Assembly: GCF_000243315.1 (NCBI RefSeq)
Contig: NZ_JH597761.1
Span: 147,940-204,931 of the forward strand
DNA length: 56,992 bases
Direction of reading: 5' to 3'
Source: Metallosphaera yellowstonensis MK1
GTDB taxonomy: Archaea; Thermoproteota; Thermoprotei_A; Sulfolobales; Sulfolobaceae
Shown: positions 22,773-56,678 of the stretch, piece after piece
Position numbering within the stretch: the stretch's first letter is position 1
Layout: every line of letters begins with the position of its first letter
Notes under the pieces: model-generated
Database searches by the model: none
What the model saw: the letters and a program-made list of their open reading frames with translations, nothing else
Told to the model about the DNA's origin: nothing
Made by a program: the position numbers and the translations under genes

Positions 22773-23991
22773 CGGTAGACCCAAAATCACCTCCTTGAAA
22801 ATAAATCTATATTATTAATAAGCGGTTCTATTGATTTAAATAGAAAATCTTTTAGATAGAATAAATCATCAGAAAACAAGAGTATTAGGAGTATCCTGAA
22901 CTGCTCCCTCCTCACCTCCCCCTTGAACACGGTGTACAGGGAGTAGAGGACCGCGGCCAGCACGAAGATCAACGTGCGGAAGACGAACTTGGTGGAACTG
23001 GTGAAGGGGAGAAAGGCCTTGATGTTCCGGTAAGAGGTCTCTATGGGACCCCTCACCTTGTTGTACAACTTCAACACCTCCCCCTTCGGTAGGTCGAGGT
23101 TCGTAGCCCTAGCGAAGTAAACGAGAGTCCTCTTCTTTCTCCTGACCTTCTCCTTGCTGTACACGAGGAGCCTGAACTTGACCTGCTCGTCCCTCCTGTG
23201 CCTCTTGCTGTTCGTCTCGTACTCGCCGTCGAACTCCTGGTAGACCTTCACGTCCCCAACAGGGACGGCAATTATGTACTTGAACTGCGAAACGAAGTTG
23301 AGCACGTCAACCGTGTAGAAGCCCGCGTCGAGAGTTATCAACCTTACCTTGAACCCCATGGCGACGACTTGCTCCACGAGGGCCTTCACGACCTCATCCT
23401 TGGTCATCCCGTTCACTTGAGTGATGAAAGCTAGTAGGAGCACTTTCCCATCTTTAGTCGTCGCAGTTGCGTAGTTCCAAGAGCTCCCCTCCTCCGAACT
23501 CCCGAGCCCCTCCACCGGTCTCCCGTACCAGGTCTTGGTCGTCCAGTCTATTGAGACGTCTATCTCCTTGACTCCCTTCAGTACCTCCAAGGATATTTTC
23601 CTCACTTGTTCCAAGAGTTTCTCAATAACTTCCACCCCTTGCTCCTCCACGTAATTCCTCACGGTCTGTGGGGACACGCCGTACGCCCTCGACTTGTTCT
23701 CTACTGAATCGTTCCATAAACACGCTGAGATGAGGGTTCTCGCCACCTCTTCCCCTCTCTTTCCCTTGAAGTTCAGCATGGAAAGTAATTTATATCCTAT
23801 TTGTTGAACGTTGTTTTGGTGAGGGAGTACCGGTGTTACCATCTCACTTAATCACTTGGTAATACCACATCTCCCTCACCTTAAACCTTTCTACAACTGA
23901 ATTCTTAATACCCTTATAAATCCTGTTATTCGCTATGAGTCGATATTATACTGCCAGAATTATTTTTCATAATATGATTTTGGGTCTACCG
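22773..23991 (-). mobile_element. ISH3-like insertion sequence, copy A (1219 bp)
   Basis: The terminal inverted repeats read CGGTAGACCCAAAATCA at 22773 and TGATTTTGGGTCTACCG ending at 23991. The single transposase gene is intact. The flanks (CCAGGT and TTTAGGG) do not show a target duplication, unlike copy B at 28350, so a rearrangement probably occurred at this site. Confidence 0.88.
22787..23842 (-). CDS. DDE transposase, ISH3-like (copy A)
   Basis: This 351-residue transposase has an N-terminal helical DNA-binding part and a DDE catalytic core. First Asp in DVSIDWTTKTWYGRPV, second in LITLDAGFYTVDVLNF, and the Glu in YNKVRGPIETSYRNIKAF, a Y-x2-R-x3-E-x6-K signature of IS4-related families. 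The gene is full length and lacks stops, and differs from copy B at scattered positions plus an extra Asn near the C-terminus. It is transcribed on the minus strand and ends within a few bases of the inner terminal repeat. Confidence 0.9.
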   Translation of the reverse strand: MVTPVLPHQNNVQQIGYKLLSMLNFKGKRGEEVARTLISACLWNDSVENKSRAYGVSPQTVRNYVEEQGVEVIEKLLEQVRKISLEVLKGVKEIDVSIDWTTKTWYGRPVEGLGSSEEGSSWNYATATTKDGKVLLLAFITQVNGMTKDEVVKALVEQVVAMGFKVRLITLDAGFYTVDVLNFVSQFKYIIAVPVGDVKVYQEFDGEYETNSKRHRRDEQVKFRLLVYSKEKVRRKKRTLVYFARATNLDLPKGEVLKLYNKVRGPIETSYRNIKAFLPFTSSTKFVFRTLIFVLAAVLYSLYTVFKGEVRREQFRILLILLFSDDLFYLKDFLFKSIEPLINNIDLFSRR

Positions 23992-24037
23992 TTTAGGGCG
24001 GGGAGGAGGTCAGAGTTATAGTGATGAAAATCTTTAA

Positions 24038-46631: not shown

Positions 46632-47061
46632 ATGTGAAACCTTTACTTCAAAACGAAAAAGTTTTACGAATCCCTCGGGGGTTTCCCTAAGACTTGTGCT
46701 AAGAGGGGAAGCGAAGGCAGAGGAGAGAGGTAAACATGGCGCTACAACACAGGATCCCGTCATCACGGTCTTAGGTCGCACTATGTGTCCCTCGTGGCCC
46801 GTTCAGAGGTCAGTTTCTCCAGGCTGAAACTTAAACGTCACGGTCTCCGGCGTGAGGGGAGAACTCCGTTCCGACTCCCTCAGCCTGACAACTTCCCTCC
46901 ACCACGGCGATGCTTCCCGTCTCTTATGGATGAACCAGACTGTCACGGTTTTACTAAAGTGAAACTACTGCTTCCTTTCTGAACTCTTCTCATCTAGTGT
47001 AACGGTTCATTTCTAGAAAAACAAGTTTATTAAGGTGTTCGACTACAGTATCAAGATAGCC
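46632..47061 (+). promoter_or_regulatory. Divergent intergenic region csa3b / csa5
   Basis: No gene is supported here. A TATA-like AGTTTATTAA at 47024-47033 fits a transcript starting just before the csa5 ATG at 47062. On the minus strand AAAACTTTTTCG at about 46654-46665 may serve csa3b. The purine- and T-rich tract near 46950-46975 could hold a Csa3 site, but I see no clear palindrome. Confidence 0.45.
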
Positions 47062-47487
47062 ATGAAGTCTCAAAGTCTCTCGGACTTCAGGAGAGTGGCC
47101 AACGCCCTGGCCTTGGCTGCCCTGGTGCAGGAGAGTACCACGGTCATAGATAGGATGGCTTACGCCTTGACTCCAGAACAGTCGGTGAGGGCACTCAATG
47201 ACGCCTTGAGGACGATCGCCAGCGTGTCACAGGGGTCCACCTCATTTCAGGTATCCCAGGTTCAGGTCAAGAAAGAGGAGAACACCTACACCTTCACCGA
47301 GGTGAAGGAGAGAGAAGGGAACATGAGGTACAAGATACCTGGAGGTCTACCAACCCAGGAGGAGGTGACGGACTTCATCGACGCTGTAACTGCGGACGTG
47401 AGGTTGGCCAGGAAAGTGGGGGCCGTAGCCCTGTCCCTGTACGTGAGGGCGAAGCAGGAGGTTTCTAAGGGGGAGGTTAAGTCGTGA
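47062..47487 (+). CDS. csa5: Csa5 (Cas11a), small subunit of the type I-A Cascade
   Basis: The ATG at 47062 (MKSQSLSDFRRVANALALAA) gives 141 residues. A GTG at 47035 in the same frame lies directly on the TATA-like sequence and is unlikely. The protein is mostly helical with a polar central insert (VSQVQVKKEENTYTF). Csa5 is the small subunit that helps Cascade hold the R-loop. It opens the interference operon. The stop codon region overlaps the cas7 start by 4 bp. Confidence 0.82.
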   Translation: MKSQSLSDFRRVANALALAALVQESTTVIDRMAYALTPEQSVRALNDALRTIASVSQGSTSFQVSQVQVKKEENTYTFTEVKEREGNMRYKIPGGLPTQEEVTDFIDAVTADVRLARKVGAVALSLYVRAKQEVSKGEVKS

Positions 47488-48467
47488 AGGGGTTCCTGTC
47501 AGTGTCCCTGAGGTACTTGGTCAACGTCGAGTCCCTCAACGGAGTGGAGAGCGTCGGGAACATATCCAGGCACAGGGTCGCCCCAGTGGTCCTACCTGTG
47601 GGTAAGGGCTATGCTGTGAAGTACGTCCCCGTAGTTTCAGGCGAGAGCATTGCACACGCCTACCAGTCCATCCTGGTAGAGGAGGCGATGTCTAGGAACC
47701 TCCCCGTGGGGAAGAGATCCTCAATCCGGGAGTTCATAAAGTACGCCGACGAGGGCATAGTTAAGGACGAGGGATTGACGCCCCCCTCCAAGGTTGATGA
47801 GATGAGGAAGTTTGAGGTAGACGTCATGCTCCACGACGTAATAGCGGACGTGGGGGGTTTCCTCTACGCAGGTAAGACGCCGGTGAAGAGGACTTCAGCA
47901 TTTAGCGTCAGCTACATGATCCCAGCCTACGATTCCGACTCGGAGACTGCAGCCCTCGAGGCACAATTTCACGTGAGGATGACTCCCTCCAACCCCAAGG
48001 AGGGGGGACAGATACCCTACACAGTGGAGGTGGGTTCGGCGATCTACACTCTCACCTTCAACATCGACCTGGACCACATAGCCAAACCGTCCAACTTCGG
48101 CGACCCCGTACAGGGGGAGAAGGATCTCCAGGCTCAGAGGGACAAGAGGGTCGAGGCTTCCGTTAGCTCAGCCATGAGGCTCCTGGAGAACCTCGAGTTC
48201 GGAGCTAAGAGGTCGAGGTTCTCGCCCATATTCAACCTGCTCTCCGCGGTCGTTGTTAGGACCGATAAACCCTTCTCTGCCACACCGGGTACCTATCGGG
48301 ACTACGTATTCGACACGACCGCCAGGGCGGAGAGCCTGAGGAACGAGAAGGTGCTAACCAAGGTGAAGATAGTGGCCCTGAACCCCAAGGAACAGTTGCA
48401 GATACCTGAAGGAATAACCGTGAAGCCCACAATATCCTCTGCACTGGGCGAGGCACTCAAGGAGTGA
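47484..48467 (+). CDS. cas7: Cas7 (Csa2), backbone subunit of the type I-A Cascade
   Basis: This 327-residue protein from a GTG start is of the Cas7/DevR family. It begins FLSVSLRYLVNVESLNGVES and has the NISRHR loop, which in this family binds the crRNA, and a central VGSAIYTLTFNIDLD strand. Several copies line up along the crRNA to form the spine of the Cascade complex. It lies between csa5 and cas5, with short overlaps on both sides. Confidence 0.92.
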   Translation: MKGFLSVSLRYLVNVESLNGVESVGNISRHRVAPVVLPVGKGYAVKYVPVVSGESIAHAYQSILVEEAMSRNLPVGKRSSIREFIKYADEGIVKDEGLTPPSKVDEMRKFEVDVMLHDVIADVGGFLYAGKTPVKRTSAFSVSYMIPAYDSDSETAALEAQFHVRMTPSNPKEGGQIPYTVEVGSAIYTLTFNIDLDHIAKPSNFGDPVQGEKDLQAQRDKRVEASVSSAMRLLENLEFGAKRSRFSPIFNLLSAVVVRTDKPFSATPGTYRDYVFDTTARAESLRNEKVLTKVKIVALNPKEQLQIPEGITVKPTISSALGEALKE

Positions 48468-49270
48468 AGGATTTGAAGGTCTTCGCCCTCCTCCTCAGGC
48501 TGAGGCCGAGCTGGGGTTACTCCGTCAAGGTCCCCAACACCAGTGCCTCTCAACCCTCCCTCTCCCTCCCTCCCCCCACGACGTTGGTGGGAGCAGTAGC
48601 CTACGGAGTTCTGAAACTCCAGGGGAGGGATCAGGAGACCGAGATCAGTGGGGGGAGAGTGACCAACTTCGCCGAGAAACTCTGGAGTGCCACGGTGTAC
48701 TCCGGGGCGTCGTTGAACGGGTTCGGAGCTCCCATAATGGACATCTCCAAGTACATAATAAGGATATACCAGAGGAAGACCAACAGGGATAGGCCGGAGT
48801 ATCAGCTGGGGGCAATTCCCACGGGGAAGGTATACGTCACAGGGGAGATCAGAGCCCTGTTGGGGTTCCACGAGGAGAGGCTCTCGAAGATCGTGGAGAA
48901 ATTCGACGAGGTGCTCCCGAAGGCCTCCTACCTCGTGACCAGGCTAGGGGCCAAGGAGTCCATAGTGTCGGTGGAGGAAGCGAAGTGGGGGTACTCCAAG
49001 GTCCTGGGTAGGGAAGTGGAGTTCTGTTCATCCTTTTATCAGCCCCTTCAACACTCGGTCCCCTTGGGGGGATGTGACGGACAAGGCTTCTTCTACAAGG
49101 AGACCTTCTGGGACGGCGGTTTCTTCGACGTAGGTAAGGAGAGGTGGTACCTAGTTCCAGGGGTCAGGGACAAGTACATATCCTCCCTGCGTGGAAGGTT
49201 TAAGGCAGACAAATCTTGTGAAGTCCACGAGTTCGAGGGAGAGGGATTTGTCGTCTGTGACGTTCGTTGA
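48464..49270 (+). CDS. cas5: Cas5 (Cas5a), RAMP subunit of the type I-A Cascade
   Basis: This 268-residue protein from a GTG start has the Cas5 N-terminal RAMP pattern (LLRLRPSWGYSVKVPNTSAS, then PPTTLVGAVAYGVL). Cas5 caps the 5' handle of the crRNA and anchors Cas7 and Cas8a. It overlaps cas7 by 4 bp. Its C-terminus overlaps the cas3' frame, and the real cas3' start is probably within the last 25 bp. Confidence 0.9.
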   Translation: MKDLKVFALLLRLRPSWGYSVKVPNTSASQPSLSLPPPTTLVGAVAYGVLKLQGRDQETEISGGRVTNFAEKLWSATVYSGASLNGFGAPIMDISKYIIRIYQRKTNRDRPEYQLGAIPTGKVYVTGEIRALLGFHEERLSKIVEKFDEVLPKASYLVTRLGAKESIVSVEEAKWGYSKVLGREVEFCSSFYQPLQHSVPLGGCDGQGFFYKETFWDGGFFDVGKERWYLVPGVRDKYISSLRGRFKADKSCEVHEFEGEGFVVCDVR

Positions 49271-50813
49271 CTCCCTCAGGAGCCTCAGCCCCGAGGGGAA
49301 GCCAAGGGATTTACTCCTGAGGACGGCGGAGATCCTAGACAGTTGGAGACCGGGACAAGTCGTACTCCTGACTGCCCCAACAGGTTACGGAAAGACGACA
49401 CTGTCACTCTCCCTGGCGAACGCTGTGATCTCAGGGAACAGGGAGTTGGCAGAGAGGGTGATCCACGTACTTCCCCTCAGGTCCATCGGGGACGACCTGT
49501 TCATTAAGGCGGAGAGGACCTTCCGCGGGCTTAAACCCTTCAGGAAATACGTGGGGTTACAGCACATGGGGAGAATGGACTCCCCCCTGCTGGGGAGGCG
49601 ATTTAACATAACGACCTTAGACACCTTTGTTCTATCCTTCTTCAAGCTACCTCCCTACGAGTTACACAAGGTCGTGAACAAGTACGACGCCCACTACGAG
49701 GTGTCCAGGGGCTTCATACTCTCGTCATTGGTAGTGTTCGACGAGGTTCACCTCTTCCTGACCGAGACGAAATCAGCCATAGCCTTCGTGACTTCCCTGG
49801 AGTCGTTGGTGGAGAGCAACGTCCCCGTTGTGCTGTCGACTGCCACCTTACCTGTTTCACACCTGAAGGAACTCAGGAAACGCGTTGAGGCAAAGGGCGG
49901 AGAACTCCTGGTTGTGGGTCCCAAGGCAGACGACTCCCCCAAGAGAGAAGTGAGGGTGGTGCCGTTCACTGGTGATTGGCTGGACAAGGCGAAGGAACTA
50001 TCTGAGGAGAAATCGCTCCTGATAGTGACCAACACCGTGAAGAGGGCCGTTGAGTTCTTCAAGGATCTGAAGAACGCCGGACTCTTCCCCCTGTTACTTC
50101 ACGGAAGGATGACCGAGAGGCACAGACAGAACGTCCTGAGTCGAGTCCTCGGCGAAGATAGGGCCATGAGTCCTGGGACAATCTTAGTCGCGACTCAGGT
50201 CATCGAGGCGGGAGTGGACATATCGGCAGGGAGTATGATAACTGAGGTCTCACCGGTGGAGAGCCTTCTCCAGAGGATGGGTAGGGTGGCGAGATACGAG
50301 GGGGAGAGCGGGGAGGTCTACGTCATCCGAAGCTCTGACAACGTTTACGAGGGGGAGAAGGTGGACGAGGCCTGGAAGATGGTGGAGAACGGTAAACTGG
50401 AGGTTCCGCAGGGGGACGTATTAAAGCTCGACAACTCACTGCACAGGGCTCTCTGGGAACTCCACCGAAACGTCTTCACTGGTTCAAAGACCGCCCTGAA
50501 ACTCCTGGAGGAAGAGTGCTCCTTTACCCGGAGTGGGGAGCTCATAAAGGTCGTACCGGAGGAGAGACTGGCGTCCGTGGACGAGGGAGATTACTTGGCC
50601 TTGGAGAGGGGGACCCTGAAAAGAGCAAAGGAGAAGATAGTAGGCGGGCTGAGGAGAGGACCTGAAGGAGTCGAGAGAGTGCAGTTGAGTGAAGACTTCT
50701 ATCGTATTCTTGAAGGGGGCGATCCCCCCTGCCTATCCCTATGGATGATGAGGAATAGAATAGATTCACTGGTAGTGAAAGGGTACGACGAGGAGGTGGG
50801 TTTCGTTGGGTAA
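49257..50813 (+). CDS. cas3': Cas3' helicase (type I-A)
   Basis: With the GTG at 49257 (TTG at 49248 is an alternative) the protein has 518 residues. An earlier start would overlap cas5 by 80 bp. Superfamily 2 helicase motifs are APTGYGKTT (Walker A, residues 40-48), VVFDEVHLF (DEVH, residues 162-165), STATLP, and ATQVIEAGVDI with QRMGRVARYEG in the second RecA domain. It unwinds and degrades target DNA together with the separate HD nuclease encoded next. The helicase-nuclease split is the usual arrangement of type I-A. Confidence 0.93.
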   Translation: MTFVDSLRSLSPEGKPRDLLLRTAEILDSWRPGQVVLLTAPTGYGKTTLSLSLANAVISGNRELAERVIHVLPLRSIGDDLFIKAERTFRGLKPFRKYVGLQHMGRMDSPLLGRRFNITTLDTFVLSFFKLPPYELHKVVNKYDAHYEVSRGFILSSLVVFDEVHLFLTETKSAIAFVTSLESLVESNVPVVLSTATLPVSHLKELRKRVEAKGGELLVVGPKADDSPKREVRVVPFTGDWLDKAKELSEEKSLLIVTNTVKRAVEFFKDLKNAGLFPLLLHGRMTERHRQNVLSRVLGEDRAMSPGTILVATQVIEAGVDISAGSMITEVSPVESLLQRMGRVARYEGESGEVYVIRSSDNVYEGEKVDEAWKMVENGKLEVPQGDVLKLDNSLHRALWELHRNVFTGSKTALKLLEEECSFTRSGELIKVVPEERLASVDEGDYLALERGTLKRAKEKIVGGLRRGPEGVERVQLSEDFYRILEGGDPPCLSLWMMRNRIDSLVVKGYDEEVGFVG

Positions 50814-51537
50814 ACCTTGTGCGTTCACCGGACAGAGCCTGATCTCTCACATGGAGGGGGTGGAGAAGCTGGTCAGGGAGGCCTTCGTGGAGGAAGGGTA
50901 TGCCAAGATAGTGAGGAAAAGGCTGTCCAAGATACGCCGGTCTCTCCCCCATCACCCAGACTTCCCCGAGGAAGTGGTGGAAGACGCCATAGTCCTCACC
51001 GCCGTGTCTCATGACCTAGGGAAGGCGGTGGAGTACTTCCAACGCCAGCTCACGAACGACTGCTCTGGGAGAGCGTCCTTTCACCCTCACGAGGTGTTGT
51101 CGGGAGCATACCTGATCAAGGCCGTGGCGGATCAGAGCCCGTTACTCCCCTTCATCACCACGGCCGTAATGATGCACCACCACGCCATGAGGGTACCGGA
51201 CGAGAAAACCTTGGAAAAGGCCCAGGAGGTAGTGAGGGGGGGAGGGAAGGTTGTGGGGGCTGGGGAACTCCACAAGTTCCTCTCCAGGATAAAGTCGTTC
51301 TCTTTCAAGGAAGTTGGCGAGATAACCCCCGACGACGTAGAGCAACTGCGCCTGTACATCAATCAAGTTATCAACTCGACCCCGTATACAGGTGTCCCAA
51401 CCTCCAGTTCTTTGCAAGTTTACTCGCTTTTTCTTCTTCCCCTGGTGGTCTCCGATAACCTGGACTCCACCAGGCGTGGAGATGACGAAGATAGGAGGCT
51501 CTTCATAGTCGAGTTAAAAAACATTTACGGTGATTAA
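50806..51537 (+). CDS. cas3'': Cas3'' HD nuclease (type I-A)
   Basis: The TTG at 50806 overlaps the cas3' stop and gives 243 residues. HD-family metal ligands are visible: H15 (SLISHMEG), H69-D70 (AVSHDLGKAVEYF), H95 (FHPHEVLSG) and H124-H126 (MMHHHAM). It cuts single-stranded DNA exposed by Cas3'. It is followed immediately by cas8a2, whose ATG begins at the next base after the stop codon. Confidence 0.93.
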   Translation: MGKPCAFTGQSLISHMEGVEKLVREAFVEEGYAKIVRKRLSKIRRSLPHHPDFPEEVVEDAIVLTAVSHDLGKAVEYFQRQLTNDCSGRASFHPHEVLSGAYLIKAVADQSPLLPFITTAVMMHHHAMRVPDEKTLEKAQEVVRGGGKVVGAGELHKFLSRIKSFSFKEVGEITPDDVEQLRLYINQVINSTPYTGVPTSSSLQVYSLFLLPLVVSDNLDSTRRGDDEDRRLFIVELKNIYGD

Positions 51538-52530
51538 ATGTCCCAACTCAGAGTGAAAACATTTAGTAAATTTTCTTCAGATTTAATTAAATCCTTTTTT
51601 TACTTGGTGAGTACGGGAGTTGATGGGATCGCCGAGGATAGGGGGGAGATCGTGGTGGAGGGCCCTGACCCGATGCTGGGGATCGGGGAGGCCCTCGAGC
51701 TCGTAGGGGAACTGATAGATAACGAGAGGTTACCGCTAACGGGAAATGATAAGACGAGTAAGCATTACAAGCGCATAATGGAGTGCGTCGGGTCCCCTCT
51801 AGACGCCCCCTCCAGTGACCTCTTCGTGAAGGCGTCCAAGAACTTGAGTAACGTAGTGGAATGCGGAGATGTGGAGCCCCTGGCCCTAATGAAGACCGAA
51901 TTCTACGAGGAGAGTAGGACTCCCCACTTTCAGGGAGAGGTCGAAGGGAAAGTGAACGTCTTAGGTACGATCTTAACCTTTGCAGGTTACGTTACGTGGA
52001 GGTTGGGGAGGTCAAGTAGGGAAGGGTTCAGCGTGGTCGTGACGCCACTCACACCGTGGACTATGGGGTCAGGCATAGGGGACGTAATCGTGAACTACAA
52101 GAGGAATAAAGTGAAGCTTCCCGAGAGTGCGGGGATCCCCTGGGCTTTCTCCTTATGGCTCGCAGTTCATCTACCCCTGGATTCCCCGGTCATGGTATAC
52201 CACGTGAAGGAGGGTCAGAGGATAAGCGTGAGTGGGGGCTACTTCTCGGACCTGAAGAGGATAAGGGAAGGACTCAACAAGACGTTCACAGGGAACTGGG
52301 AGAACTACCTTGAGGACGTCCTAAGGTACTCCCTAAGTAAGGACTCACCCAAGGAGGCGATCACGTTTGTCCAAAAGTTGTACGAGACCGTCAACGGTGC
52401 CCTCAGGAAGGAGGAGTTGGCCTTCAGGGGATTGAGGGATTACGCGGGATTGATAGCGAGGGAGAGCGGGGAGGAAAACGTGGTTGTCCGGGCCATAGGG
52501 AGGTTGGCGTCACTTATCTCGGTGGAGTGA
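51538..52530 (+). CDS. cas8a2: Cas8a2 (Csa4), large subunit of the type I-A Cascade
   Basis: This 330-residue protein resembles Csa4/Cas8a2 in length and position. It has a helical N-terminus (FSSDLIKSFFYLVSTGVDGI), a central FAGYVTWRLGRSSREGFSVV and a C-terminal helical bundle. The large subunit recognises the PAM and helps open target DNA. It is the last recognised gene of the operon. In many Sulfolobales operons cas6 follows, but here a MITE and then a CARF-PIN gene on the other strand occupy the next 2 kb. Confidence 0.8.
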   Translation: MSQLRVKTFSKFSSDLIKSFFYLVSTGVDGIAEDRGEIVVEGPDPMLGIGEALELVGELIDNERLPLTGNDKTSKHYKRIMECVGSPLDAPSSDLFVKASKNLSNVVECGDVEPLALMKTEFYEESRTPHFQGEVEGKVNVLGTILTFAGYVTWRLGRSSREGFSVVVTPLTPWTMGSGIGDVIVNYKRNKVKLPESAGIPWAFSLWLAVHLPLDSPVMVYHVKEGQRISVSGGYFSDLKRIREGLNKTFTGNWENYLEDVLRYSLSKDSPKEAITFVQKLYETVNGALRKEELAFRGLRDYAGLIARESGEENVVVRAIGRLASLISVE

Positions 52531-53299: not shown

Positions 53300-54607
53300 T
53301 CATCCCTGAACCCATCTAACCTTGACACAGTTGTTACTCTTCTCCCAACACAGTTCAGGCCTCTCCTCGGCGCTCAACTTCTCGAGGACATAGGAGAGGA
53401 AAACCCCCAGGTTAGCCAACGCCATGGCCCTGTCGCTCTTCCTACCCTTCACGCCTCTCAAGCCGGCGAGCGTCACCCTGGCTATCTTGGACACCGGGGA
53501 TGAGGACCAGAGTTCGTAGGCCAACTTGTCTGCTGTTATCAAGTAGGCCCCGTCTAGGATGTAGGGGTCAGCCCTCGGGACGACCACGTCGCACTGCTGA
53601 AACTCGGTGGGGAGGTAACCTGAGGTCTCCCTCAGGTGGAGGGCCACCTGTAATACCAGGTGTCCAAAGAGCTTGTCGTCAGTGGCCTTGAGTATGATTT
53701 CATTTAGGACGCAGTGGGGTAGTAGGAGGTTGTTGGCCTCGTAGGTGTGGATCCCGTAGTACACTAGGTTCGTGTCCACGATGGCCCTCCCCTGTGTGAG
53801 CACGCGTGAGAGCTCTACCTCCTGATTATTGCCTTGGTTCACCTTGATCTCCTTGGTTCCGGCCAGGTTAACCAGGTTGTTGAAGAGCTCTTCAGGATTG
53901 CTCACGTTTGCGGCTATGGCGCCCACCTGCTCCAGGCACATCGTGAAGGACCTCAACGCCCCGTCGTTGAAGTCACTGTTGAGACGGCACTCGTTTAACC
54001 TGAGCTCAAGCCAGTAGTTGGGCACCGGATCCCTGTTCAGGTTGTTCAGTTTCAGGACGGTTTCTGACAGGGTCCTAACGTAACTGTTGTTGGTCTCCAA
54101 ACCGATCATGGGGATGGGGATCGTGGGGTCCTTCCAGGAGTTGATCACGCCTTGAGAGTTAAACACCAGCGGTTCCTCTGCAGTCCTCGGGACATATGGG
54201 TAGTAGAAGTTGTGCCAGGAGCCGAAACTGAAGAGGAAGTTGACTACGTAGTAGTTGGGCCTCTGTAGTAACTTCCTGGTGAGGAGAATCGTCATGACGT
54301 TGGAGGCGGGGGTGACCACGGAGTAGACCACTTCACATCTGGAGATTTCCTCGTCTATGGTCTTTTCTGTGGCCTTGATGTCGTACGCGGTCCTCTCCTC
54401 TCTCACCGTGAAATCCCTCGCCTTCTTGAGCTCGTTCAACGTCTTTCTCACCCTCTCCATGACCCACTCTGCGTGAGGGGAGAACATCAGTAAGTAGTGG
54501 TCTGGCTTAAAGAGTTCGAAGGACCTCACCAGGGAAGACATGGTGGCCTCCAAGAGGAAGTCAGATCTACTTATGGGGAGGATTACGCAGACCTTTTTAC
54601 CGGACAT
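53300..54607 (-). CDS. CARF-PIN fusion protein, candidate cyclic-oligoadenylate-gated RNase
   Basis: This 435-residue protein has two domains. Residues 1 to about 170 look like a CARF sensor: an opening strand VCVILPISRSDFLLEATMSS, and SVVTPASNVMTILLTRK (residues 96-112) where the ligand motif of CARF proteins lies. After a linker with many Asn residues, residues 273 to about 365 form a PIN nuclease: D278 (IVDTNLVYYG), E303 (VLNEI), D347 or D352 (ADPYILDGAYL) and D360 (LITADKL). PIN domains cut RNA with these acidic residues. A TATA box CTTATTAACC (minus, about 54629-54638) gives a leaderless start, right beside a MITE. No type III genes are nearby. The ligand is inferred, not shown. Confidence 0.65.
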   Translation of the reverse strand: MSGKKVCVILPISRSDFLLEATMSSLVRSFELFKPDHYLLMFSPHAEWVMERVRKTLNELKKARDFTVREERTAYDIKATEKTIDEEISRCEVVYSVVTPASNVMTILLTRKLLQRPNYYVVNFLFSFGSWHNFYYPYVPRTAEEPLVFNSQGVINSWKDPTIPIPMIGLETNNSYVRTLSETVLKLNNLNRDPVPNYWLELRLNECRLNSDFNDGALRSFTMCLEQVGAIAANVSNPEELFNNLVNLAGTKEIKVNQGNNQEVELSRVLTQGRAIVDTNLVYYGIHTYEANNLLLPHCVLNEIILKATDDKLFGHLVLQVALHLRETSGYLPTEFQQCDVVVPRADPYILDGAYLITADKLAYELWSSSPVSKIARVTLAGLRGVKGRKSDRAMALANLGVFLSYVLEKLSAEERPELCWEKSNNCVKVRWVQG

Positions 54608-54639: not shown

Positions 54640-54701
54640 CAGCAGTTAAGGGATTTCTCGTTGCGTAGCCTTGAAGTCAAGGCGAAATTTAATAACTGCT
54701 G
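54640..54701. repeat. MITE copy beside the CARF-PIN promoter
   Basis: Begins CAGCAGTTAAGGGATTTCTC and ends AATTTAATAACTGCTG. Confidence 0.85.
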
Positions 54702-54706
54702 TCTTC

Positions 54707-55279: not shown

Positions 55280-55672
55280 TCAGAGATACACGATCTTTGC
55301 TAAATCCCTGGCTCTCTCAAAGTCCCTATCCCTAGTAAGTATCGTTAAGTTCAACTTTTTTGCGGTTATGATAAGTAAAGCGTCCGTAATGTCTAAATTC
55401 TTACTGATCGCAAGATCCATAGCTTTTAGATAGTCGTAAAATGAGTGAATAACTAGAGGCTTATCGCTTAATAATTCTATGATATATTTAAATAGTTTGA
55501 CATAACCCAGAGCCCTGTCTCTCTGTGAAGAATTCACACTCTCCAAATATTTCTCGTAAACGAATTCTGCGAATTCATGTAAAACGCTCTCAGTCACAAC
55601 ATACTTCTCGATACTCAATATCTTTTTACTTATTATTACGTTTGTATCGACGAGAACTTTCTCTTCCTTAAT
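55280..55672 (-). CDS. vapC: VapC-type PIN toxin
   Basis: The PIN signature VLVDTNVIISK lies upstream of the obvious TTG start (55618). A full-length protein of 130 residues therefore needs a start at the ATT at 55672, since an in-frame stop lies just before. The remaining PIN acidic residues appear in LHEFAEF, DITDALLI and TRDRDFERA. VapC toxins cut tRNA or rRNA. The start region overlaps the end of vapB, as is usual in toxin-antitoxin operons. AT-rich codon use suggests later arrival. Confidence 0.8.
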   Translation of the reverse strand: MKEEKVLVDTNVIISKKILSIEKYVVTESVLHEFAEFVYEKYLESVNSSQRDRALGYVKLFKYIIELLSDKPLVIHSFYDYLKAMDLAISKNLDITDALLIITAKKLNLTILTRDRDFERARDLAKIVYL

Positions 55673-55902
55673 CTCTCAACAGCCTCCTTAACTTCTTCAG
55701 TCGAAGGTTCACCGAGAAATTCAAAAAGCTTTTCTATACCTTCTTTGAGAAAATTCTCTTTACTTTTTTCAACTTCCTTGGCTACATTCTCGTTATTTGT
55801 AATAAACAAGCCGTCAAATATTCTTACAACGTACATTTTTTTGCCCGCAAAATCGCTCCCTAGATAAATCCTGCCTTTGCTATCAACTTTCTTTGCTTCC
55901 AT
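55636..55902 (-). CDS. vapB: VapB-type antitoxin with AbrB/SpoVT fold
   Basis: This 88-residue protein begins with an AbrB-like swapped-hairpin DNA-binding segment (VDSKGRIYLGSDFAGKKMY) and ends with a charged helix (EEVKEAVERLRKRK) likely to wrap the toxin. The vapC frame overlaps its last codons. Antitoxins of this class also repress their own promoter. Confidence 0.82.
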   Translation of the reverse strand: MEAKKVDSKGRIYLGSDFAGKKMYVVRIFDGLFITNNENVAKEVEKSKENFLKEGIEKLFEFLGEPSTEEVKEAVERLRKRKFSSIQT

Positions 55903-56055: not shown

Positions 56056-56415
56056 TCAGCCCTTGGGCTTCATCAGAGTCACGGGGCACATCCTTAACAA
56101 TTTGAAGAATCCTTTCCTCTTCACGTTCAACCCAGACCCGACGTCGGTTATTACTTGGTCGTACTCCTTAACGTTCTCCTCTAGGTATTTTACTTGGTTT
56201 ACTAAATCGTCTTTCTGTGTATTTGATGATACCCCAGCGTATAATATCACTTTCCTCTTCCTAACAATCCCCATCAATCTTTCGACATCCTCTTCTCTAA
56301 ACCTCCACTTTCCGCTCTGTAGTATCACAGGTTGAATGTATCCTTTCTTAACATAGCTCTGTAGTGTGCGGTATGATATTCCTAGTTTTTGGCATACCTC
56401 CTTGGGTTTTAGCAT
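56056..56415 (-). pseudogene. Truncated IS607-type serine resolvase
   Basis: The ATG at 56415 (MLKPKEVCQKLGISYRTLQS) starts a MerR-like helix-turn-helix domain followed by the resolvase core VILYAGVSSNTQKDDLVNQV. The Arg usually before the catalytic Ser (YARVSS) is Gly here. The frame reaches GSGLNVKRKGFFKLLRM and then continues with unrelated residues to a stop, so the C-terminal half is missing. The copy at 20015 breaks within a few codons of the same place. Confidence 0.78.
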
Positions 56416-56678
56416 TGTAATTAAACTTACATACAAAACATATAAACTTTACGGTTTATCGGAAACTGTTGACAACGGCGTCTTTTTCGTTCTCTTCCTA
56501 CAGGTGTTCTTTATTTCTATTTCATTTTTCCGTCTTTTCTTTTCGTCTTTTCCGTTATTCTTGACGGGTCGTTAGTCGGCCCATCACACATGCTATTAGA
56601 CGCATTTACGGGGGGGGGGAATTCACGTATAGAGGAACGGTAAGTGGAGGAGATTTTCATTAGCACATTTCTCTTACA

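Follow-up and report, generated by a model that had tools for sequence, protein, structure and literature searches.

Proteins that fuse a CARF sensor domain to a PIN nuclease domain are already known. Makarova et al. 2014 described two CARF families fused to PIN (PMC4012209), and a 2025 classification lists PIN effectors among the effectors of cyclic oligoadenylate signalling, as RNases (PMC12669027). The ring nuclease Crn1, a member of the CARF7 and CARF_m13 families, is specific for cA4 (PMC12409355). A CARF-PIN protein has also been crystallised with cA4: SiRe_0806 of Sulfolobus islandicus (PDB 9jxw; 9jxx with cA4), for which no publication was found. It belongs to the PADLOC family PDLC01068, as a relative's PDLC01068 protein retrieves 9jxw by sequence at E 8e-101. 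The family considered here carries the PADLOC name CARF_m3--CARF_PIN, which reportedly follows the CARF superfamily classification made by Makarova et al. in 2020, and the literature searched contained no experiments on PIN proteins of the CARF_m3 type.

The window, a stretch of 56,992 nucleotides of Metallosphaera yellowstonensis MK1 (C10:147940-204931, C10 being contig NZ_JH597761.1 of genome G000), carries one such gene near its right end (C10:201242-202546). The genome comprises 2.8 Mb and is 99.98% complete. By profile similarity, the encoded protein belongs to the CARF_m3 CARF-PIN family, which was already known: the PADLOC model CARF_m3--CARF_PIN (PDLC01983) matches it over positions 1-396 of 397 at E 7.1e-161, and two further PADLOC CARF-PIN models match as well, a second one of the same CARF_m3--CARF_PIN name at E 3.4e-25. 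Searches of Pfam, NCBIfam and PDB sequences with the protein returned nothing specific or useful; general libraries thus fail to reveal this family. The sequence-only reading had called the protein a CARF-PIN fusion and had proposed a profile search; the CARF_PIN models found in this way, together with the fold matches and conserved acids described below, bear the call out. Identity is 38-39% to the nearest homolog found (in genome G020) and about 17-31% to the others. We interpret the protein as a nuclease that is switched on by a ligand and serves the neighbouring type III-D system as an effector, probably as a cA4-activated ribonuclease. This interpretation draws on analogy with known effectors, and we assign it a probability of roughly 0.8.

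Table 1. Features of the CARF-PIN gene and of CRISPR and signalling genes in the MK1 genome. Positions without a prefix are window coordinates; prefixes C10 and L denote contig and locus coordinates.
Feature	Position	Strand	Basis or remark
CARF-PIN gene, 435 aa	53300..54607	(-)	Intact ORF; PDLC01983 E 7.1e-161, full length
TATA-like box TTATTAA	54630..54636	(-)	About 26 nt 5' of the ATG, read by eye
CARF-like Rossmann domain, about residues 1-160	54128..54607	(-)	AlphaFold strands and fold matches
Connecting region, about residues 161-262, helices and short strands	53822..54127	(-)	AlphaFold model; limits approximate
PIN nuclease domain, about residues 263-369	53501..53821	(-)	Modelled alone; top match AF0591
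C-terminal extension, about residues 370-435, long helix and beta hairpin	53303..53500	(-)	AlphaFold models
D278 codon, first PIN acid (DTN motif)	53774..53776	(-)	D in 31/31 homologs
E303 codon, second PIN acid	53699..53701	(-)	E in 31/31 homologs
D340 codon, probable third PIN acid	53588..53590	(-)	D/E in 31/31 homologs
D347 codon, alternative third acid	53567..53569	(-)	28 D, 2 E, 1 gap in homologs
D360 codon, fourth PIN acid (TxD motif)	53528..53530	(-)	D in 31/31 homologs
Csa3 regulator, CARF and winged helix	46029..46781	(-)	Csa3_N E 2.3e-35
Type I-A effector operon	47035..52530	(+)	Convergent with the CARF-PIN gene; assigned from the sequence-only reading and gene order
III-D cassette csm3-csm3-cas10-csm3-csx10-csm3	C10:205295-211870	(+)	Profile and homology searches
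cas4 and cas1	L015:17470-18931		After III-D; cas1 from relatives' cas1-like ORF and position beside cas4
Crn1-type CARF7 protein	C10:234.6-235.6 kb		Cas_APE2256 and SSO1393-like winged helix
Csx1-type CARF-HEPN protein, 464 aa, RNVLMH motif	C10:270.7 kb		Csx1_CARF search
Stand-alone CARF protein, 183 aa, CARF5 / CARF_m13	L089:1384-1935 (C10 about 276.4 kb)		Beside cas6

An AlphaFold model of the full-length protein, built from ten homologs, reached a pLDDT of 87 and a pTM of 0.88. Its N-terminal half shows a Rossmann-like beta-alpha alternation (strands E6-12 to E119-126, and E144-150). In Foldseek searches of the PDB, the best match to the full model was SiRe_0806 in both its apo and cA4-bound forms (E 4e-9 to 3e-8, probability 1.00), followed by Can2, Cdn1, Card1, Csm6, Can1, Cam1 and cA4-bound Csa3, all of them CARF proteins; a search of a viral structure library brought up nothing meaningful. 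The C-terminal 174 residues, modelled separately with a pLDDT of 91, matched the PIN protein AF0591 first (probability 1.00), then VapC, PAE2754, SMG6, RRP44 and PcrIIC1, and also the C-terminal part of SiRe_0806. Since the E-values of these PIN matches range from 0.003 to 0.4, the evidence for PIN lies in the consistency of the list and in the near-1 probabilities of the best matches. Profile and fold searches detected no HEPN domain in the protein, and the fold found is PIN instead. The structure prediction thus agrees with the sequence-only reading at both ends, with a CARF fold in the N-terminal part, where a sensor had been proposed, and a PIN core with its acids in the C-terminal part. 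An alignment of 31 homologs yields one point against the effector interpretation: the RSD residues that follow the first strand, and that may line the pocket, are retained in the Sulfolobaceae clade alone.

Conservation of the active-site acids was scored over the same 31 homologs, a diverse set from across Thermoproteota. The acid set first proposed from the sequence was D278, E303, 'D347 or D352', and D360. Three of these, D278, E303 and D360, are invariant, and the third position needs correction to D340 and/or D347. From the alignment and the model, the third acid is probably D340, with D347 as the alternative: D340 opens the helix spanning residues 339-345 in the AlphaFold model and lies 20 residues ahead of D360, close to the 18 residues that separate the corresponding acids (DALLIITAKKLNLTILTRD) in a VapC-like PIN protein encoded at window positions 55280-55618. 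A spacing of about 18 residues between these acids is usual in VapC proteins generally. In an hhalign alignment of low probability, D340 also falls in register with the 'GD' that the SiRe_0806 family conserves. D352 is variable among the 31 homologs and was rejected as a catalytic acid. The VapC-like protein (Pfam PIN E 6e-8) is part of a VapBC-like pair at window positions 55280-55902, whose 88-aa partner is AbrB-like by eye and by position, with no profile match.

The fold matches also bear on the nature of the substrate. A cyclic oligoadenylate-activated nuclease could instead cut DNA, by nicking or single-strand cleavage in the manner of Can1/Card1-type effectors. PIN-like domains include DNA nucleases of the FEN-like kind, the Cas9-associated PcrIIC1 is among the weaker PIN fold matches, and the DNA-acting Can2 and Card1 are among the best fold matches, probably by way of their CARF part. 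The PIN domains matched most closely, however, are those of stand-alone archaeal proteins, of VapC-like proteins and of RNA-decay factors, and the 2025 classification of PIN effectors as RNases points the same way; we regard a DNA target as unlikely.

Genomic neighborhood analysis identified a candidate source of the signal. The sequence-only reading had looked for it elsewhere in the genome or in an unknown signal, but a type III-D cassette lies next door, beginning 364 bp past the end of the window and 2.7 kb from the CARF-PIN gene. Its statement that the window holds no type III genes was right with respect to a functional cassette, the sole III-D protein match there being a 23-codon insertion-sequence end. 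The cassette consists of six overlapping or adjoining genes, all of which align with the cassette of genome G010 over most of their length, and its csx10 matches Cas5_IIId at E 1.6e-118. The genome search for cas10 that had also been proposed found an 852-aa Cas10 in this cassette, with an HD domain and a GGDD motif at residue 619; judged from its sequence, the cyclase motif is apparently intact. The CARF-PIN gene stands on the strand opposite to the III-D genes and shares no operon with them. In the first cas7-type (csm3-like) gene, the first 18 codons have been replaced by the end of an insertion sequence, so expression or assembly of the III-D complex is not certain.

Several mobile and repetitive elements surround these genes. 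The III-D cassette is flanked by two direct copies of one insertion sequence (C10:204696-212424; L015:4697-12425), an arrangement that resembles a composite transposon. The left copy supplies the end found in the first cas7-type gene, and further copies of this end occur at window positions 23935-24003 and near position 9588 of L016. A truncated IS607-type element, with a MerR-like helix-turn-helix and the start of a resolvase domain, occupies window positions 56056-56436. Self-comparison of the contig also revealed a pair of long diverged-repeat arrays in opposite orientation, with a period of about 64-66 bases (C10:212480-215880 and 221200-224300). One separates the III-D cassette from cas4/cas1, and the other lies beyond cas4/cas1 (L015/L016). 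These are probably CRISPR arrays facing each other.

Other genes of the MK1 genome could take part in the same signalling. The Csa3 regulator in the window is predicted to be another cyclic oligoadenylate-responsive protein; the assignment of the type I-A operon beside it is partly echoed by homologs in L096. The Crn1-type gene, 32 kb from the CARF-PIN gene, is the sole match of its model in the genome. The CARF-PIN protein is not the sole candidate effector, as a Csx1-like CARF-HEPN protein can be recognised by sequence as well; the Csx1_CARF model detected this 464-aa protein, whereas the Csx1_HEPN profile found no match in the MK1 genome. The Csx1-type gene, the gene for the short CARF5/CARF_m13 protein and cas6 lie together at C10:270-278 kb. 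The 183-aa protein is a second ring-nuclease candidate because some members of the Crn1 family reportedly fall within CARF_m13 (PMC12409355). The suggestion that the CARF-PIN gene occupies the usual cas6 site holds only in relatives: cas6 of MK1 is about 75 kb away (L089), and in genomes G019 and G030 it adjoins the CARF-PIN gene.

The distribution of the family provides further evidence. A scan of genome contigs with the single sequence found no relative, whereas an alignment-based search found seven; overall, the CARF_m3 CARF-PIN family is present in 46 of 398 Thermoproteota genomes. Cas10 was detected in 27 of the 46 carriers against 85 of the 352 other genomes (Fisher P 5e-6, shared ancestry not removed). 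Of the 17 CARF-PIN genes for which Cas10 could be mapped, 6 lie less than 20 kb from it, where 0.5 would be expected (P about 1e-5). Placement is the stronger test of the two because co-occurrence retains shared ancestry, and both figures still include any general clustering of defence genes. Some carriers have no detected Cas10, and the Cas10 search misses some (that of G020 was found otherwise). A further PADLOC model, PDLC01037, mostly retrieved Csa3-sized CARF proteins and CARF-PIN proteins that were already known.

Individual loci show the same linkage at closer range. III-D-like cassettes lie near the CARF-PIN gene in G020, G010, G024 and G135, and in G112 the genes for Cas10, CARF-PIN, Crn1-type and Csx1 proteins form a single one-strand run. 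The Crn1-type and CARF-PIN genes overlap by 4 bp in L051, as do the Csx1 and CARF-PIN genes in G020, and a Crn1-type gene stands beside the CARF-PIN gene in L106 and in Vulcanisaeta distributa (L052, the same locus as L101). The CARF_m3 CARF-PIN family is associated with type III, Crn1-type and Csx1 genes much more often than chance would give.

Broken genes were also seen in three relatives. In G024, cas10 is split into parts of 430 and 455 aa (L093:15962-18645) while the CARF-PIN gene nearby is intact, and in G135 the CARF-PIN gene is split into two frames near an intact cas10 (L095:10556-12065). G002, in which no Cas10 was detected, keeps a 90-codon CARF-PIN remnant (L105:10083-10355); this single case can be read as an effector decaying in a genome that lacks the source of its signal.

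This gene context weighs on a second alternative, in which the protein answers a ligand unrelated to type III and serves the type I-A system or general RNA turnover. Here the gene adjoins a type I-A operon, in G030 it follows a type I-A operon with cas6, and about 8 of 20 CARF-PIN neighbourhoods in relatives contain no recognised CRISPR gene. Against this stand the excess linkage to Cas10, Crn1-type and Csx1 genes and a best structural match that was crystallised with cA4, and we consider such a role improbable. It is more improbable still that the gene has decayed or become inactive. The region is rich in insertion sequences, the first III-D gene has lost its start to one of them, and truncated family members occur elsewhere, as in G002; yet the ORF runs uninterrupted from an ATG through 435 residues, an ordinary length, retains all PIN acids and is preceded by a TATA-like box whose distance from the start codon fits a leaderless archaeal transcript, as far as can be read from the sequence. 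MITE-like short palindromic elements (CAGCAGTTATnnGATTT...AAATCnAATAACTGCTG) occur at window positions 54640-54702, adjoining this box, and at about ten other sites between 42000 and 56750. Finally, some CARF domains cleave their own ligand, but a ring nuclease or decoy that binds and cuts cyclic oligoadenylate with a secondary PIN domain is very improbable given a dedicated Crn1-type protein in the genome, similar genes beside relatives' CARF-PIN genes, and PIN acids that are among the most conserved positions.

A ligand-gated RNase is the likely function supported by the profile match, the modelled fold, the conserved acids and the genome context, from which we infer the ligand, dimerisation, gating, a preference for RNA over DNA and the biological effect. 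Binding of cyclic oligoadenylate, for instance, would be expected by analogy with 9jxx. In the proposed sequence of events, the III-D complex would bind a foreign transcript and the palm domain of its Cas10 (GGDD) would produce cyclic oligoadenylate. The ring, probably cA4, would bind across a dimer of the N-terminal CARF domains and rearrange the C-terminal PIN domains, in which D278, E303, D340 (and/or D347) and D360 would hold divalent metal for RNA cleavage. Cleavage without strong sequence specificity would slow virus and host alike, until the Crn1-type ring nuclease 32 kb away removed the cA4 and ended the response. cA4 is favoured as the ligand mainly because Crn1-type neighbours recur and Crn1 is cA4-specific (PMC12409355).

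The SiRe_0806 type of CARF-PIN protein (PDLC01068) is full-length in 27 of the 31 Sulfolobaceae genomes searched, and the MK1 genome is the only nearly complete one in which no trace of it was found. The other exceptions are G029 (split frame), G012 (remnant) and G025 (a genome 71% complete). Since both CARF-PIN families occur together in seven genomes (G010, G019, G020, G024, G026, G027 and G030), replacement of the SiRe_0806 type by the CARF_m3 type is suggested at most. We therefore offer only as a doubtful proposal that CARF_m3 PIN proteins might be a distinct second lineage of PIN ribonucleases gated by cA4, mainly with archaeal III-D systems and paired with Crn1-type ring nucleases, which here would have replaced the near-universal SiRe_0806 type.

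What this analysis adds to the known fusions is the family assignment, the III-D neighbour, the recurrent linkage to Crn1-type and Csx1 genes, and a resolved acid set. About 45 kb of the MK1 genome hold a complete set of III-D Cas10, PIN effector, Crn1-type ring nuclease and type I-A Csa3 regulator, and this set predicts a ligand (cA4), the active-site acids and an off-switch. If the III-D effector interpretation is true, a PIN ribonuclease would stand alongside the HEPN ribonucleases among the effectors of type III immunity, and a single signal could perhaps act in RNA attack as well as in the regulation of type I-A.

Compared with known systems, the MK1 protein shares the PIN fold and its four acids with VapC toxins, which lack a sensor domain, whereas the MK1 protein has 435 residues with a sensor; no antitoxin-like ORF adjoins its gene. 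Can2 and Card1 (CARF with PD-(D/E)xK) are cA4 effectors with the same CARF fold, but their nuclease fold is unrelated to PIN. The Csx1/Csm6 CARF-HEPN proteins likewise join a CARF sensor to an RNase and are linked to type III, but they carry HEPN where the MK1 protein carries PIN. SiRe_0806 has the same CARF-PIN architecture and is the best full-length structural match, with no detectable sequence link between the MK1 protein and SiRe_0806/PDLC01068 (hhalign probability 2%, with the acids in register). The closest correspondence is with the CARF_m3--CARF_PIN family itself (PDLC01983/PDLC01984), with which the MK1 protein shares the two-domain order and the acids, differing only by ordinary divergence.
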